Assembly (NCBI GenBank): GCA_012523465.1
Contig: JAAYIK010000014.1
Span: forward strand, 62,001-126,000
Reading direction: 5' to 3'
From: Lysobacteraceae bacterium
Lineage (GTDB): Bacteria > Pseudomonadota > Gammaproteobacteria > Nitrococcales > AK92
Length of the DNA: 64,000 nucleotides
This document shows, one piece after another, positions 7,040 to 20,328 of this stretch. Position numbers and translations under genes: made by a program. Positions within the stretch are counted from its first letter, which is position 1, and each line of letters starts with the position of its first letter. A model generated the notes under the pieces. It was not told the origin of the DNA, searched no databases, and worked only from the letters and a program-made list of their open reading frames with translations.

Positions 7040-7068
7040 AAGACAGTTTTATGACAGCTTCATGACAG
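7040..7068 (-). promoter_or_regulatory. Tandem Pho half-sites upstream of phoB
   Basis: Read on the minus strand from 7068, three half-sites follow at 11-base intervals: CTGTCAT (7068-7062), CTGTCAT (7057-7051) and CTGTCTT (7046-7040), with spacers GAAG and AAAA. The order is one and a half Pho boxes in tandem. TGTAATGAT lies just after as a possible -10. The first half-site overlaps the last codons and stop of egtD, so promoter and coding sequence are merged. Confidence 0.85.
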
Positions 7069-8061
7069 CCGCGCCAGCACCAGCGAGAACAGATGCTCGC
7101 CGCCTTCGATGTGGCGCACCACCGTGAAGCCGGCCTGCTCCAGCATGGCCGTCAGCGTTCGGCGGGTAAACTTGCGGCTGATCTCGGTCAGTATCGCCTC
7201 ACCTCGCGCGAACTCGAACGCACGCTCCAGGGCGCCGACGTGAACCCGCTGGCGTCGCCGCGCCACCAGGAGCATCTCGATCTGCATCCGGCGCCGGTTG
7301 TAAAGGGCCCGGTGGCAGAAACCGGCGGGATCGAAATCGGCCTGCAACTCCCGGTTAATCACCTGCAGCAGGTTCAGATTGAAGGCCGCGGTCACGCCGG
7401 CGGCATCGTTGTAGGCCGCCTCCAGCACGACGGCGGATTTCACCCTGTCGGCGCCCAGCAGCAGAAAGTCTTCCGGGCCCATGCAAGCGCGCAGATCGGT
7501 CAGAAAGGCCCGTGCCTCCTGCGGGCTGAAATTGCCGATGGTGCCACCGAGAAACAGGAACAACCGCCGCTCGCCCGTCGCAGGCAGATGGCCCAGCCCC
7601 GCCAGATAGTCTCCCACGAGCGCCCGGATGCGCAGCCAGGGATAGCGCCGGGTCAGCCGCTGCCCGGCCTGCTCCAGCGCCTCCCGGCAGACGTCGAGCG
7701 GCCAGTACTCGCGCAAGCCCCCCAGGCGCTCGGCGGCGCTCAGGATATGGCAGGTCTTGCGCGAGTTGCCGCTGCCCAGCTCGACCACGATCCGCGGCTG
7801 CGCCAAGTCGACCAGCTCAGCCGCATGGGCCGCCAGCAGCGCGGCCTCGCTCCGGCAGGGGTAGTACTCGGGGGTCGCGCAAATGCGCTCGAACAGCTGC
7901 GATCCGCGCGCATCGTAGAAATACTTCGGCGGCAGCGAGCGGGGCCTGCGGGCAAAACCCTGCAGCAGGTCTTCTCGCAGTCCGGGCACTGGTCTGACCG
8001 GCGCCAGCGGGCGGCAGGAAAATTCGGCGGCGTCGACGGCGCGTTCCAGGTTGCTGCGCAT
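7060..8061 (-). CDS. egtD: L-histidine N-alpha-methyltransferase EgtD
   Basis: The 333-residue protein belongs to the EgtD/DUF2260 family, which trimethylates histidine to hercynine with S-adenosylmethionine, the first step to ergothioneine. Family signatures are PPKYFYDARGSQLFERIC near the N-terminus, the SAM loop VELGSGNSRKT and FLGGTIGNFSPQEA. The C-terminal strands (ISRKFT, LFSLVLARLS) close the fold. GAAGGAGC lies eight bases before the ATG. It is divergent from egtC-egtB and reads toward phoB, whose Pho boxes overlap its 3' end. Confidence 0.94.
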   Translation of the reverse strand: MRSNLERAVDAAEFSCRPLAPVRPVPGLREDLLQGFARRPRSLPPKYFYDARGSQLFERICATPEYYPCRSEAALLAAHAAELVDLAQPRIVVELGSGNSRKTCHILSAAERLGGLREYWPLDVCREALEQAGQRLTRRYPWLRIRALVGDYLAGLGHLPATGERRLFLFLGGTIGNFSPQEARAFLTDLRACMGPEDFLLLGADRVKSAVVLEAAYNDAAGVTAAFNLNLLQVINRELQADFDPAGFCHRALYNRRRMQIEMLLVARRRQRVHVGALERAFEFARGEAILTEISRKFTRRTLTAMLEQAGFTVVRHIEGGEHLFSLVLARLS

Positions 8062-8222
8062 GCCTTGGCTCCTTCAGGCGGCTGCCTCATTGGCGACTAT
8101 GCTTACTGACGGCGAGCTGGCCGCTCGGCGTTTGTTGCAGGCAGCCGGTGCAGCCATCAATGTAAAAGCTAGGGATGCCGACCCGGCGGGGAAAGCCCCG
8201 CCGGCCGTGGAGTGCGACCATC

Positions 8223-8996
8223 ATGTGTAGGTTTGCCGCCTATCTTGGGCCCGAGCTGCCGCTGGGCCGCTTTCTGCTGGAACCTGACCACAGCCTGGTC
8301 AGGCAATCATGGCAGCCGCGCGAGATGCAGACTGCGATGCTGAATGCCGACGGCTTCGGCGTCGGCTGGTACAACGGCAGCGCGCCGGCGACCTATCGGC
8401 AGATGCTGCCGATCTGGGCCGACCCCAACCTGGCCGATTTGGGCAACAGCCTGGCGCGGCGGCTCTGGCTGGCCCATGTCCGCAGCGCCACCCCCGGCTA
8501 CGCGGCCGGCCATGCCAACACTCAGCCCTTCGCCGACGCCGAGCTGCTGTTCGTCCACAACGGCTTCGTCACCGATTTCGCCTACACGGTGCGGCCACGG
8601 CTACGCCGCTGGCTGCGGCCGGAGATTGAGGCCGGCATTCACGGCGGCACCGACTCCGAGTACCTGTTCGCCGTGGTGCGCCAGCTGCTGGCGGAAGACC
8701 CGGAGCGCGACCTCACCGACGCGTTGCGCCTGCTGCACACGCTGCTGCTGGAATGGGGCGCCGAGCAGGCGCTGCTGAGCATGGCGCTCAGCGACGGCGC
8801 CCGCGTGGTGGCGCTGCGCCATGCCATGGGATGCGACTGTCCCAGCCTTTATTTCACCGCCGACGACGACCTGTTCCCCGATGCCCAGCTGGTAGCCTCC
8901 GAGCCGCTGACCGAGATCGGCTTCTGGCAAGCCATCCCGCCGCACCATCTGCTGGTCCTGGACGAAGACGAACCGCCGCAGCTGCTGCCCCTATGA
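8223..8996 (+). CDS. egtC: Class II glutamine amidotransferase, EgtC type
   Basis: I start at ATGTGTAGG (MCRFAAYLG) because removal of Met exposes the catalytic N-terminal Cys that this family needs; an upstream in-frame ATG would bury it. The 257-residue protein carries NADGFGVGWYN, LAHVRSATPG, NTQPF and FVHNG, the substrate-pocket motifs of EgtC. In mycobacteria EgtC removes the gamma-glutamyl group from the hercynyl-gamma-Glu-Cys sulfoxide. Its stop overlaps the egtB start as ATGA. A YafJ-like amidotransferase is the alternative, but the partners argue for EgtC. Confidence 0.88.
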   Translation: MCRFAAYLGPELPLGRFLLEPDHSLVRQSWQPREMQTAMLNADGFGVGWYNGSAPATYRQMLPIWADPNLADLGNSLARRLWLAHVRSATPGYAAGHANTQPFADAELLFVHNGFVTDFAYTVRPRLRRWLRPEIEAGIHGGTDSEYLFAVVRQLLAEDPERDLTDALRLLHTLLLEWGAEQALLSMALSDGARVVALRHAMGCDCPSLYFTADDDLFPDAQLVASEPLTEIGFWQAIPPHHLLVLDEDEPPQLLPL

Positions 8997-10135
8997 GCCC
9001 AACCGATTCGCTGGCGGCATTACGAACGATTCAAGACGCGCTCTGCGACTTGCTGGCGCCGTTGGCCGAGCGCGATCTCCGCAGCCAATTCCATCCCGAC
9101 CTCAGCCCGCTGGGCTGGCATCTGGGCCACTGCGTCTTCACGGAAGCCCTCTGGCTGAGCCGTGCTCGGGCGGTCCCGGCACCGGCCGCCGCGCTGCGCT
9201 CCCTGTACACGCCCGCGCTGTCGCCTAAACCGGCGCGCGGCGGCCGGCTGCCGACCAAGCCGACGCTGCTGACCTGGGCTCGCCGGCAGCAAGCGCGGCA
9301 CCGGGAGGCGCTGGCCGCGCTGCCGACGGCTGCCCTCACGCGCTACCGCCTCGCTGACCTGCCCCTGTTCCTGGCCCAGCATCATGCCCAGCATCTGGAG
9401 ACCATGCGGATGGCGCTGGCGCAGCGCACCGCTCGCCAGGCCATGCCGCCCGCTGGCGCCACCCTGGAAGCCCTGCCACCGCGGCAGGATGCGGTCCTGC
9501 TGCCAGCCGGCCAATATCGGCTGGGCAGCACCGCCGCGGCCGCCTACGACAACGAGCAGCCGCCGCGCGCGGTGCGCCTGCAGGCCGCACGGCTGGCCCG
9601 CCGCGCAGTCAGCAATGCCGAATTCCTGGGCTTCATGGAGGATGGGGGCTACCGGCGCCGGGAGCTCTGGAGCGAGGCCGGCTGGCGCTGGCGCAGCCGG
9701 CTGCACGCGCTGCGGCCGGAATACTGGCGGCAGGCACCCAACGGCGGCTGGCTGCTGCTGCGGCCAGACGGCTGCCAGCCCCTGCCGGGCGACGAGCCGC
9801 TGCTCGGCATCAGCCGCTACGAGGCCGAGGCCTTTGCCAACTGGGCCGGCGCCAGGCTGGTCCACGAATACGAATGGGAGGCGGCGGCAGGACTGGGCTT
9901 GCTGGAGGATGCCGGCATGGTCTGGGAATGGTGCGGCAACCGCTTTCATCCCTACCCGGGCTTTCGCGCGTTTCCCTACGCCGGCTACTCCCTGCCCTGG
10001 TTCGATGGCCGCCACTACGTCTTGCGTGGCGGCAGCTCCCAGACCGTACCCTGGCTGAAGCGGACCAGCTTCAGGAACTTTTACCCGGCGCACCAGCGTC
10101 ACCTCTTCGCCGGGCTGCGCCTGGCCCTCCCCTAG
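8993..10135 (+). CDS. egtB: Ergothioneine sulfoxide synthase EgtB
   Basis: The 380-residue protein joins an N-terminal DinB-like domain to a C-terminal FGE-sulfatase-like domain. Iron ligands are visible: His in SPLGWHLGHCVFTEALW and the HX3HXE motif HHAQHLE. The second domain shows YDNEQPPRAV, GISRYEAEAFANWAG, WEWCGNRFHPYPGF and the closing HLFAGLRLA. EgtB joins hercynine to cysteine or gamma-glutamylcysteine with oxygen. It is about 50 residues shorter than mycobacterial EgtB. A selenoneine synthase (SenA) is possible, but no senB or senC neighbours are seen, while egtC and egtD are. Confidence 0.88.
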   Translation: MSPTDSLAALRTIQDALCDLLAPLAERDLRSQFHPDLSPLGWHLGHCVFTEALWLSRARAVPAPAAALRSLYTPALSPKPARGGRLPTKPTLLTWARRQQARHREALAALPTAALTRYRLADLPLFLAQHHAQHLETMRMALAQRTARQAMPPAGATLEALPPRQDAVLLPAGQYRLGSTAAAAYDNEQPPRAVRLQAARLARRAVSNAEFLGFMEDGGYRRRELWSEAGWRWRSRLHALRPEYWRQAPNGGWLLLRPDGCQPLPGDEPLLGISRYEAEAFANWAGARLVHEYEWEAAAGLGLLEDAGMVWEWCGNRFHPYPGFRAFPYAGYSLPWFDGRHYVLRGGSSQTVPWLKRTSFRNFYPAHQRHLFAGLRLALP

Positions 10136-14018: not shown

Positions 14019-14171
14019 TCAGCGCTCGGTGGCATCATCGATGGCCCGGCCGGTGTCCTCGGCGGCCCGATCCGCCCGCTCCCCAGCACGCTCGAGCGGC
14101 CCTTCCTGCTCACAGCCGACCAGCCCGCTGACCCCCAACCCTAAGAGCACCAGCATCAGTAATCCGCGCAT
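14019..14171 (-). CDS. Small lipoprotein with charged helical tail
   Basis: The 50-residue product starts at MRGLLMLVLL, with AAAGGAGG seven bases upstream. It has a hydrophobic signal of about 18 residues ending in the lipobox LVGC, so it should be lipid-anchored. The mature part is short and amphipathic (ERAGERADRAAEDTGRAIDD). Such tiny lipoproteins are common and mostly uncharacterised. It is divergent from the amidoligase with 93 bases between starts, and may share regulation with it. Confidence 0.7.
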   Translation of the reverse strand: MRGLLMLVLLGLGVSGLVGCEQEGPLERAGERADRAAEDTGRAIDDATER

Positions 14172-14264
14172 TCCCGGCCTCCTTTCGGCACCCGTTGTCC
14201 CTTCCTCCTTTATCTGCGGGCCGAACGCCGCCATTCAAAAGCCGCAGGGCAGAGCGGGAGCAGA

Positions 14265-15299
14265 ATGGACGCGGTCATGCATGGCTATCCCTTTCCACGG
14301 CGGATGCTGGCTGCCGATGGCACCGAACGCACCGTCGGCATCGAGCTCGAGTTCGCCGGCCTCGAGCTGGAGGACATCGCCCGGATCGTGATCGAGCTCT
14401 ACGGCGGCCACCTGGTGCCCGTCAGTCGCTTCGAATGCCGGGCGGCGGACACCGCCCTCGGCACCTTTCGCATCGAGATCGACCTCATACCGCTCAAGCG
14501 GCGCAGCCATCTGCGGCTGCTGGATCGTCTCGGCCTGGAGCTGGAGCCGGAGTCGCTGCGCCACGCCGAGGACGTGCTGGCGCGGGTGGCAGGAACGCTG
14601 ATTCCGCACGAGATCGCCAGCCCGCCACTGGCCATGCACCTGCTGCCATGCCTGGAGCGGCTTCGCGCTCGCCTGCAGGCCGCCCACGCCCGCGGCACCA
14701 AGGCCTTGCCGCACTATGCCTTTGGGCTGCAGTTCAATCCGGAGATTCCGGCCAGGGACGCGACCACCATCCTCAACTATCTGCGCGCCTTTTTGTTGCT
14801 GGCGGACTGGCTGGAGCAGCAGGGCCGCATCGCCCTGGCGCGCCGCCTGTCGAGCTTCATCAGTGCCTTTCCCCTGGCCTATGCCCGTAGCGTGCTACAG
14901 CCGGACTATGCCCCCGGGCTCGGCCAGCTGATCGACGACTACGCCCTCGCCAACCCGACCCGCAACCGTCCCCTCGATCTGCTGCCCCTGTTCGCCTATC
15001 TGGCTCCCGCCCGGCTGCGGCGCGAGCTGGCCGAGAACCGCATCAAGATCAATCCGCGCCCGACCCTCCACTATCGTCTGCCCAATTGCCTGATCGACGA
15101 GCCCGACTGGACCCTGGCGCGGGAATGGGCCGGCTGGGTCGCGGTCGACAATCTGGCGCAGTCGCCCGGGAAGATCGCGGCCATGAGCGAGGACTTCTTG
15201 GCGCGGCGCGGGCATGTCATGGTCGGCTATGACGAGTCCTGGGCGCAGCGAGTGGCGCAGGAGTGGCTGCAGGCCATCATCGACCCGTCATCGGCGTAA
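14265..15299 (+). CDS. Amidoligase family protein (carboxylate-amine ligase, glutamine-synthetase fold)
   Basis: The 344-residue protein matches the amidoligase family, relatives of glutamine synthetase and glutamate-cysteine ligase predicted to make amide or peptide bonds with ATP. Visible signatures are the metal-binding strand VGIELEFAGLELED, FRIEIDLIPL, the loop HEIASPPLAM and GLQFNPEIPA. The substrate is unknown. GGGAG lies before the ATG. Its end overlaps the next gene, a glutamine amidotransferase, by 37 bases. The pairing suggests the ligase installs an amide that the partner donates or hydrolyses. Confidence 0.82.
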   Translation: MDAVMHGYPFPRRMLAADGTERTVGIELEFAGLELEDIARIVIELYGGHLVPVSRFECRAADTALGTFRIEIDLIPLKRRSHLRLLDRLGLELEPESLRHAEDVLARVAGTLIPHEIASPPLAMHLLPCLERLRARLQAAHARGTKALPHYAFGLQFNPEIPARDATTILNYLRAFLLLADWLEQQGRIALARRLSSFISAFPLAYARSVLQPDYAPGLGQLIDDYALANPTRNRPLDLLPLFAYLAPARLRRELAENRIKINPRPTLHYRLPNCLIDEPDWTLAREWAGWVAVDNLAQSPGKIAAMSEDFLARRGHVMVGYDESWAQRVAQEWLQAIIDPSSA

Positions 15300-16063
15300 C
15301 CGGCCCCGACCGCGGCGGCCTGGCGGCCTGGTGGTTCACGCGGCTGGCGCTTTGGCGCGCTGGCGCCACGGCGGTGCGGATCACGCCCGGCCGTCCCCAG
15401 CCCCTGCAGGGGCTGGACGGACTGGTCATCGGTGGCGGCGCCGACATCGATCCCGCGCTCTACGGCGATGCAAGCAGCCTGCCGCAAAGCTCGCTCAAGC
15501 AGCAGGAGCGCAATCTGGCCCGCTGGCTGCTGTCGCTGCTGCTGTTCCCCCTGATTTATCTGGCCCGCCGCATCCTCAGCACCATGACCCATCCGCCCGG
15601 CGGCGACCCCGACCGCGACCGCCTGGAGACTGCGCTGCTGCGCGAAGCCTTGCAGCACGGACTGCCGGTGCTAGGCATCTGCCGCGGCGCCCAGCTGCTC
15701 AACGTGGTCTGTGGCGGCTCGCTGCACCGGGATCTGGCGGATTTCTACGTGGAAGCGCCGCAGCTGCGCACCATCTGGCCGGAGAAGCTGATTTGCATCG
15801 AAGCCGGCACTCGCCTTGCCGCCATCCTCGACTGCAGCGCCTGCCGGGTCAACTCGCTGCACAGCCATGCCGTCAACGCGCTGGCGCCCGAGCTGCGCTT
15901 CGCGGCCCGCGAACCCAACGGCGTGGTGCAGGCCATCGAGCACCGGCGGCTGCCGTTCGCCATCGGCGTGCAGTGGCACCCGGAATACCTGCCTCAGCGC
16001 CACGAGCAGCAGAACCTGTTCCGGGCCCTGGCGAAGCAAGCGCGCGTCTGCATGGCATCATGA
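15263..16063 (+). CDS. Class I glutamine amidotransferase / gamma-glutamyl hydrolase (peptidase C26-like)
   Basis: The 266-residue protein begins at a GTG inside the amidoligase gene. The triad is present: Cys140 in LGICRGAQLLN, with His and Glu in GVQWHPEY near residues 239-241. The oxyanion region is LVIGGGADIDPALYG. Closest known relatives are PuuD-type gamma-glutamyl-GABA hydrolases. Unlike them it carries a hydrophobic insert near residues 88-103 (RWLLSLLLFPLIYLAR) before the nucleophile elbow, which might bind a membrane. It could trim a gamma-glutamyl product made by the amidoligase. Confidence 0.85.
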   Translation: MAAGHHRPVIGVTGPDRGGLAAWWFTRLALWRAGATAVRITPGRPQPLQGLDGLVIGGGADIDPALYGDASSLPQSSLKQQERNLARWLLSLLLFPLIYLARRILSTMTHPPGGDPDRDRLETALLREALQHGLPVLGICRGAQLLNVVCGGSLHRDLADFYVEAPQLRTIWPEKLICIEAGTRLAAILDCSACRVNSLHSHAVNALAPELRFAAREPNGVVQAIEHRRLPFAIGVQWHPEYLPQRHEQQNLFRALAKQARVCMAS

Positions 16064-16150: not shown

Positions 16151-19843
<3,693 letters not shown>

Positions 19844-19983: not shown

Positions 19984-20328
19984 ATGAAGCACAAGTCAAC
20001 TCTCGCCTGCATTCTGGTCCTGGCGGCTGCCCCGGCTTTTGCCGCCAGCAGCGGCAGCGGCATGGGCGGCACGCTGTCGTTCGACAGCCTCGACACGGAC
20101 GGCGACGGCTACATCAGCGGGCAGGAAGCCCAGACCGCCGGCATGAGCGTGATGGATCTGGACGCCGACGGCGACGGCCAGGTCTCCCAGGATGAGTTCG
20201 AGACCGCCTCCAGTGCCGGCAGCGGCGCCGGTGGCAGCACCGGCGGCACTACCGGCGGATCCATGGGCAGCGGCTCCTCGGGGAGCAGCACCATGGGCAG
20301 CACCTCCGGCAGCAGCAGTAGCGGCTGA
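19984..20328 (+). CDS. Secreted EF-hand protein with Gly/Ser-rich tail
   Basis: The 114-residue product has a clear signal peptide (residues 1-20, cleaved after AFA). Two canonical EF-hand loops follow: DTDGDGYISGQE (37-48) and DADGDGQVSQDE (60-71), both with full calcium-ligand spacing. From residue 76 the rest is a low-complexity Gly/Ser/Thr tail. It should bind calcium in the periplasm or outside the cell. AGGAGG lies close before the ATG. I do not recognise a specific family, and a partner is not evident nearby. Confidence 0.8.
   Translation: MKHKSTLACILVLAAAPAFAASSGSGMGGTLSFDSLDTDGDGYISGQEAQTAGMSVMDLDADGDGQVSQDEFETASSAGSGAGGSTGGTTGGSMGSGSSGSSTMGSTSGSSSSG

Follow-up and report, generated by a model that had tools for sequence, protein, structure and literature searches.

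The amidoligase gene (P0001) and the C26-type hydrolase gene (P0002) that follow each other in the window, the whole stretch of 64,000 nucleotides that was analysed, form a real, co-inherited unit, and we predict, with about an even chance of being right, that this pair is a make-and-cleave module acting on a gamma-glutamyl amide or an amide of another carboxyl group. Both genes could be scored in 47 gammaproteobacterial loci (one of them, L005, is a MAG labelled Desulfuromonadales, and its taxonomic assignment is uncertain), and in every one of them the C26 gene lay immediately 3' of the ligase gene on the same strand. A phylum-level search with PF12224 gave 20 further alpha- and gammaproteobacterial loci, and the C26 gene adjoined the ligase in 17 of them. 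The exceptions were divergent: L125 and L126 were nearest to L084, a ligase without a partner that is the second copy in its genome, and L127 did not match the ligase family of the window any more. On alphaproteobacterial plasmids, besides Dinoroseobacter, the annotation placed a hydrolase or amidotransferase of this type next to the ligase at two loci, and four were without one. The pair is spread across Alpha- and Gammaproteobacteria.

Searches with the ligase found it in 18 of 369 genomes of the class and in 20 of 40 relatives, and a scan of a genome collection gave 12 loci, mostly from Wenzhouxiangella. When the same 369 genomes were searched with the C26 protein, 17 of the 18 ligase genomes were recovered together with two that had no recognisable ligase, which meant that 17 genomes had both genes, one had the ligase only at the threshold used, two had C26 only and 349 had neither (p ~4e-26, uncorrected for phylogeny). 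In G151, a genome with C26 and no recognisable ligase, a stretch of 35 residues just 5' of the C26 gene (L144 2429-2533) was similar to part of the ligase (E 0.002) and is possibly a decayed or divergent ligase. The ligase and C26 trees were congruent, with a distance correlation of r = 0.82 where permutation gave 0.32 at most, the hydrolase tree being computed without the columns of the insert described below; shared species history accounts for part of this congruence. One pair (L068, genome G202) comes from the order and family of the genomes with the long, insert-bearing type of hydrolase, yet both trees placed it with the short-clade members from other orders, so it was likely transferred jointly. 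The operon-like pairing that the first-pass annotation had proposed was therefore borne out by adjacency and by congruent trees.

The layout given there, with a 37-base overlap and a divergent 50-residue lipoprotein gene 93 bases away, was exact, and the open reading frames lie as listed in Table 1. The GTG of P0002 is the first in-frame start downstream of the preceding stop, and in relatives the two genes commonly overlap by 4-49 bases, so the ligase and C26 genes are likely to be translationally coupled. A promoter and terminator scan found none. The window genome has a single copy each of the ligase and C26 genes.

Table 1 Features of the ligase-C26 locus and nearby genes in the window
Feature	Position	Strand	Basis or remark
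EgtD	7060-8061	-	
EgtC	8175-8996	+	
EgtB/SenA-like protein	~8753-10135	+	Below both equivalog cut-offs
Lipoprotein gene P0003, 50 aa, lipobox LVGC, divergent from the pair	14019-14171	-	Neighbour, judged non-component
Lipoprotein-ligase intergenic gap, 93 bases	14172-14264		
Ligase gene P0001, Amidoligase_2, 344 aa	14265-15299	+	PF12224 match
Overlap of ligase and C26 genes, 37 bases	15263-15299	+	ORF coordinates
Hydrolase gene P0002, Peptidase_C26, PuuD/SpuA-like, 266 aa, GTG start	15263-16063	+	PF07722 match
P0002 long-loop codons, residues 69-114	15467-15604	+	34 long vs 13 short sequences
Hydrophobic helix in P0002 loop, residues 85-106, P96 and R102 invariant	15515-15580	+	AF2 model, conservation, hydrophobicity
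P0002 triad codons C140, H239, E241	15680-15682, 15977-15979, 15983-15985	+	Invariant, 47 homologs
Cobalamin-dependent methionine synthase MetH, full-length	16151-19843	+	HMM match; start 88 bases after hydrolase stop

The ligase matched PF12224 with 177 bits (7.7e-52, curated cut-off 22) over profile positions 2-244 of 245, and P0002 matched Peptidase_C26 (PF07722) with 146 bits (1.6e-42, cut-off 20.5), so the earlier domain calls stood. The AlphaFold2 model of the ligase was confident (pLDDT 92.4), and its top PDB fold matches were glutamine synthetases, YbdK, Dop and GmaS; the match was weak (best E 0.012, TM below 0.4), and a glutamine synthetase (GS)-like fold is predicted from it. When solved structures were searched by sequence with the ligase and with its profile, nothing significant was found. 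Residues E27, E29, E71, D73, N158, R233, R265, H269 and R271 were invariant in 40 homologs, and the charged ones would be those expected of an active ligase. A phage collection contained no homologs of P0001; for the phage amidoligase clusters in the literature, the partners are GATase_6 and others.

For P0002, the best sequence matches were PuuD and SpuA, and its model (pLDDT 87.3) matched the PDB folds of the same two proteins (E 2e-21 and 5e-20) well ahead of GATase subunits. We take both structure entries, from their names and general knowledge, to be gamma-glutamyl-amine hydrolases. The Cys-His-Glu triad is intact in P0002 and invariant in 47 homologs, and a caution comes from residue 202, which is His in P0002 and Gln in 46 of the 47. 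An assignment as PuuD was rejected at the equivalog cut-off of NF008471 (99.3 vs 266 bits), and one as gamma-glutamyl-CDP-amidate hydrolase at that of NF045546 (43.5 vs 250 bits), so the substrate of P0002 probably differs from those of both enzymes.

P0002 also matched class I GATase (4.1e-17), and this match counts in favour of the main rival explanation, a glutamine-dependent amidating complex in which the C26 protein would act as glutaminase and pass ammonia to the ligase, converting a carboxylate to a primary amide, as GatD does with MurT. Overlapping genes and near-obligate pairing would fit such a two-subunit enzyme, and MurT-GatD of peptidoglycan amidation (PMC3267633, PMC5871853) is a precedent that likewise joins a ligase to a class I GATase-fold partner encoded by co-transcribed genes. 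However, the GATase match reached 63 bits, far below the 146 bits of Peptidase_C26, and PuuD and SpuA, which head the fold matches, are hydrolases that act alone rather than GATase subunits. The precedent differs as well, because MurT is a Mur ligase and not GS-like, and because GatD serves as a glutaminase subunit while P0002 stands closer to the C26 hydrolases. We consider the amidating complex unlikely.

In the make-and-cleave reading that we prefer, the ligase and C26 genes would work as a single module with coupled translation. With ATP, the GS-like ligase would link an amine to a carboxylate, for which the gamma-carboxyl of glutamate is the likeliest candidate, and the C26 hydrolase would cut the same amide through its triad. 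Cleavage would either complete a pathway or limit an intermediate, as in PuuA-PuuD or AtdA1-AtdA2, and in the lineage of the window the hydrolase would probably be attached to the inner side of the cytoplasmic membrane by a Pro-containing hydrophobic helix insert. We favour this reading because adjacency, co-occurrence and congruent trees tie both genes, because the hydrolase is nearest to PuuD/SpuA in sequence and predicted fold and matches Peptidase_C26 better than GATase, because the ligase model falls in the GS/YbdK/Dop/GmaS group, because active-site residues are invariant in both proteins, and because of the precedent in aniline degradation, where the GS-like AtdA1 makes gamma-glutamylanilide and the GAT-like AtdA2 hydrolyses it back and keeps its level low (PMC11335346). 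Thus, with P0002 nearest to PuuD/SpuA, the gamma-glutamyl amide chemistry suggested at first is still the best guess.

The likeness to AtdA1-AtdA2 is that one protein would make a gamma-glutamyl amide and its partner would hydrolyse it; beside the window pair, however, no dioxygenase genes were seen, and AtdA1 is described as GS-like. PuuA-PuuD/SpuA, of the gamma-glutamyl-polyamine route, similarly combine a GS-fold ligase with a C26 hydrolase of a gamma-glutamyl amine, but the window ligase belongs to PF12224 and by sequence matches no solved glutamine synthetase, and P0002 scores below the PuuD equivalog cut-off and carries an insert. Several observations count against a make-and-cleave module: the weak fold match of the ligase, the score of the hydrolase below the PuuD equivalog and its His instead of Gln at 202, the two genomes with a C26 protein and no recognisable ligase, and the gene overlap, which suits a physical complex equally.

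Modification of a protein or peptide was also considered, in which the ligase would add an amino acid or amine and the C26 peptidase would remove it. Dop is among the GS-fold relatives of the ligase, and reading by eye found an Anbu-like protease gene upstream of the pair and divergent from it in three relatives of the order (L056, L065 and L066), in L065 with what appears to be a circularly permuted ATP-grasp gene beside it. But this proximity, seen in one order only, may reflect synteny, the hydrolase looks like gamma-glutamyl hydrolases of small molecules, and a tag peptide was not found. Such a role is very unlikely in our view, and both protein tagging and the thiol role discussed below are less likely than the amidating complex.

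The pair appears in two forms, which differ in the hydrolase. Among the 47 C26 proteins, 34 (P0002 included) had a loop of 41-45 residues and the other 13 had one of 8, and the insert of the long clade is about 37 residues. It lies shortly ahead of an RDxxE motif that is invariant in the family. In the AF2 model, insert residues 85-106 formed one continuous helix with moderate confidence, and across the long clade P96 and R102 were conserved in 34/34, R103 in 31/34 and R87 in 25/34. The hydrophobic stretch had a mean Eisenberg hydrophobicity of 0.57 and a low moment of 0.24, values that suit a membrane helix better than an amphipathic one at a surface. Topologically, one transmembrane pass within a cytoplasmic domain would be awkward, so the natural reading is a predicted re-entrant membrane anchor of PglC type; a buried or interface helix is a possible alternative. 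The re-entrant helix of PglC has a Pro break and flanking basic residues (PMC6133551), and the insert resembles it as a predicted lone hydrophobic helix that bears a conserved Pro, has basic residues on its flanks and belongs to a cytoplasmic enzyme. Unlike that of PglC, which is an unrelated enzyme, the helix of P0002 is inserted internally, and where PglC has Ser or a branched residue ahead of the Pro, Phe or Tyr mostly stands here. In three short-type loci (L083, L111 and L113), a second C26-family gene followed the first at a distance of about 1 kb.

A gene for a VTT-domain protein (PF09335, YqaA-like) was directly downstream of the pair in 6 of the 13 short-clade gammaproteobacterial loci and nearby in two more; the 34 insert-bearing loci had none, nor did the 20 further alpha- and gammaproteobacterial loci. 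Many pair-bearing relatives had no such gene anywhere, so the VTT gene is not required by the pair. Together, the insert helix and the VTT neighbours suggest a membrane link, and they give indirect support to the hint of an envelope function in the first-pass annotation. A more specific proposal is that the insert-bearing C26 protein would be a membrane-anchored gamma-glutamyl hydrolase whose helix presents a membrane-borne substrate, that the module would reversibly gamma-glutamylate a lipid- or polyprenyl-linked amine, and that insert-free modules would work beside a VTT-type membrane protein. This is speculative, and we think it distinctly unlikely to hold as a whole.

The divergent lipoprotein had been proposed as a part of the system. 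P0003 is a real gene, its homologs (40-57% identity) retaining the lipobox, and no family of Pfam or NCBIfam matched it. With a lenient threshold, its own family had matches in 31 of 59 genomes, almost always away from the pair, and a clear homolog lay beside the pair only in the window genome and in G072, where it was upstream. A lipobox scan round the pair found small divergent lipoproteins only in the family of the window (L034 and L035), with sequences unlike P0003. Lipobox and homolog searches found no lipoprotein gene near the pair in the remaining scored loci. A three-gene envelope system with this lipoprotein could draw on the divergent placement at 93 bases and on the small lipoprotein genes upstream of the pair in G072, G370 and G371. 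However, those of G370 and G371 have no clear homology to P0003, most P0003 homologs are elsewhere in the genome and the other loci have no such gene near the pair. So the lipoprotein was rejected as a third component, and the three-gene system is largely refuted by missing conservation and extremely improbable. The two genes of the pair, on the other hand, are far from rarely adjacent in relatives, so of the tests named at first, adjacency spoke for the pair, and the lipoprotein was left without a conserved link.

The pair had been put forward as new, and this was not supported. The Pfam entry for PF12224, with reference to Iyer et al. 2009, reportedly notes that proteobacterial members adjoin a glutamine-amidotransferase-like thiol peptidase. 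Both families and their arrangement are those of the window pair, which appears to belong there. The pairing was therefore probably already recognised, but the membrane-like insert of the C26 protein and the VTT neighbours of its sister clade are not known to have been described, and both the subclade with the insert and the association with VTT genes may be new. In the literature searched, we found no experimental study of the bacterial ligase-C26 pair or of its substrate. The search is now narrowed to an inherited pair from which the lipoprotein is excluded and to a large clade whose hydrolase has a membrane-like helix under strict conservation. Not only soluble gamma-glutamyl amides but also membrane lipids should be searched for the product, and the C26 insert offers a simple mutational handle.

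Clustering of neighbours across loci revealed no universal third gene beside the pair. The conserved third gene that the first pass had suggested looking for was thus absent, and MetH, CysQ-like, GroEL, GlnE-like and other neighbours were rejected as partners and reflect lineage-limited synteny. In several genomes of the order of the window, the pair lies amid methionine and sulfur genes with MetH downstream and adjoining it; elsewhere in the order, MetY-, CysQ-, sulfate-adenylyltransferase- or MetK-like genes beside the pair were read by eye, the window MetH being the one among these sulfur neighbours confirmed by HMM. We treat the methionine and sulfur neighbours as vertical synteny.

A role in thiol metabolism was examined because an ergothioneine cluster (7060-10135, with EgtD, EgtC and an EgtB-like protein) lies about 4 kb from the pair, which would then make or trim gamma-glutamyl compounds of ergothioneine or glutathione metabolism. 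EgtD was present in 18 of 20 pair-positive and 7 of 20 pair-negative relatives, and the sulfur-metabolism genes flanking the pair in several relatives of the order point the same way. Across the class, however, EgtD was found in 11 of 18 pair-positive and 124 of 351 pair-negative genomes (p 0.04 without phylogenetic correction), which left it missing from seven pair-positive genomes, and the window genome already has GshA, a GCS2 protein and its own EgtC. With co-occurrence only weak across the class, the thiol role was rejected as highly improbable. In G072, which has the pair and EgtD, the glutamate-cysteine ligase families PF04262 and PF04107 were unmatched. Downstream of MetH, the window encodes a small EF-hand-like secreted protein with a Gly/Ser-rich tail (19984-20328), which matched lanmodulin weakly (30 bits, cut-off 135).
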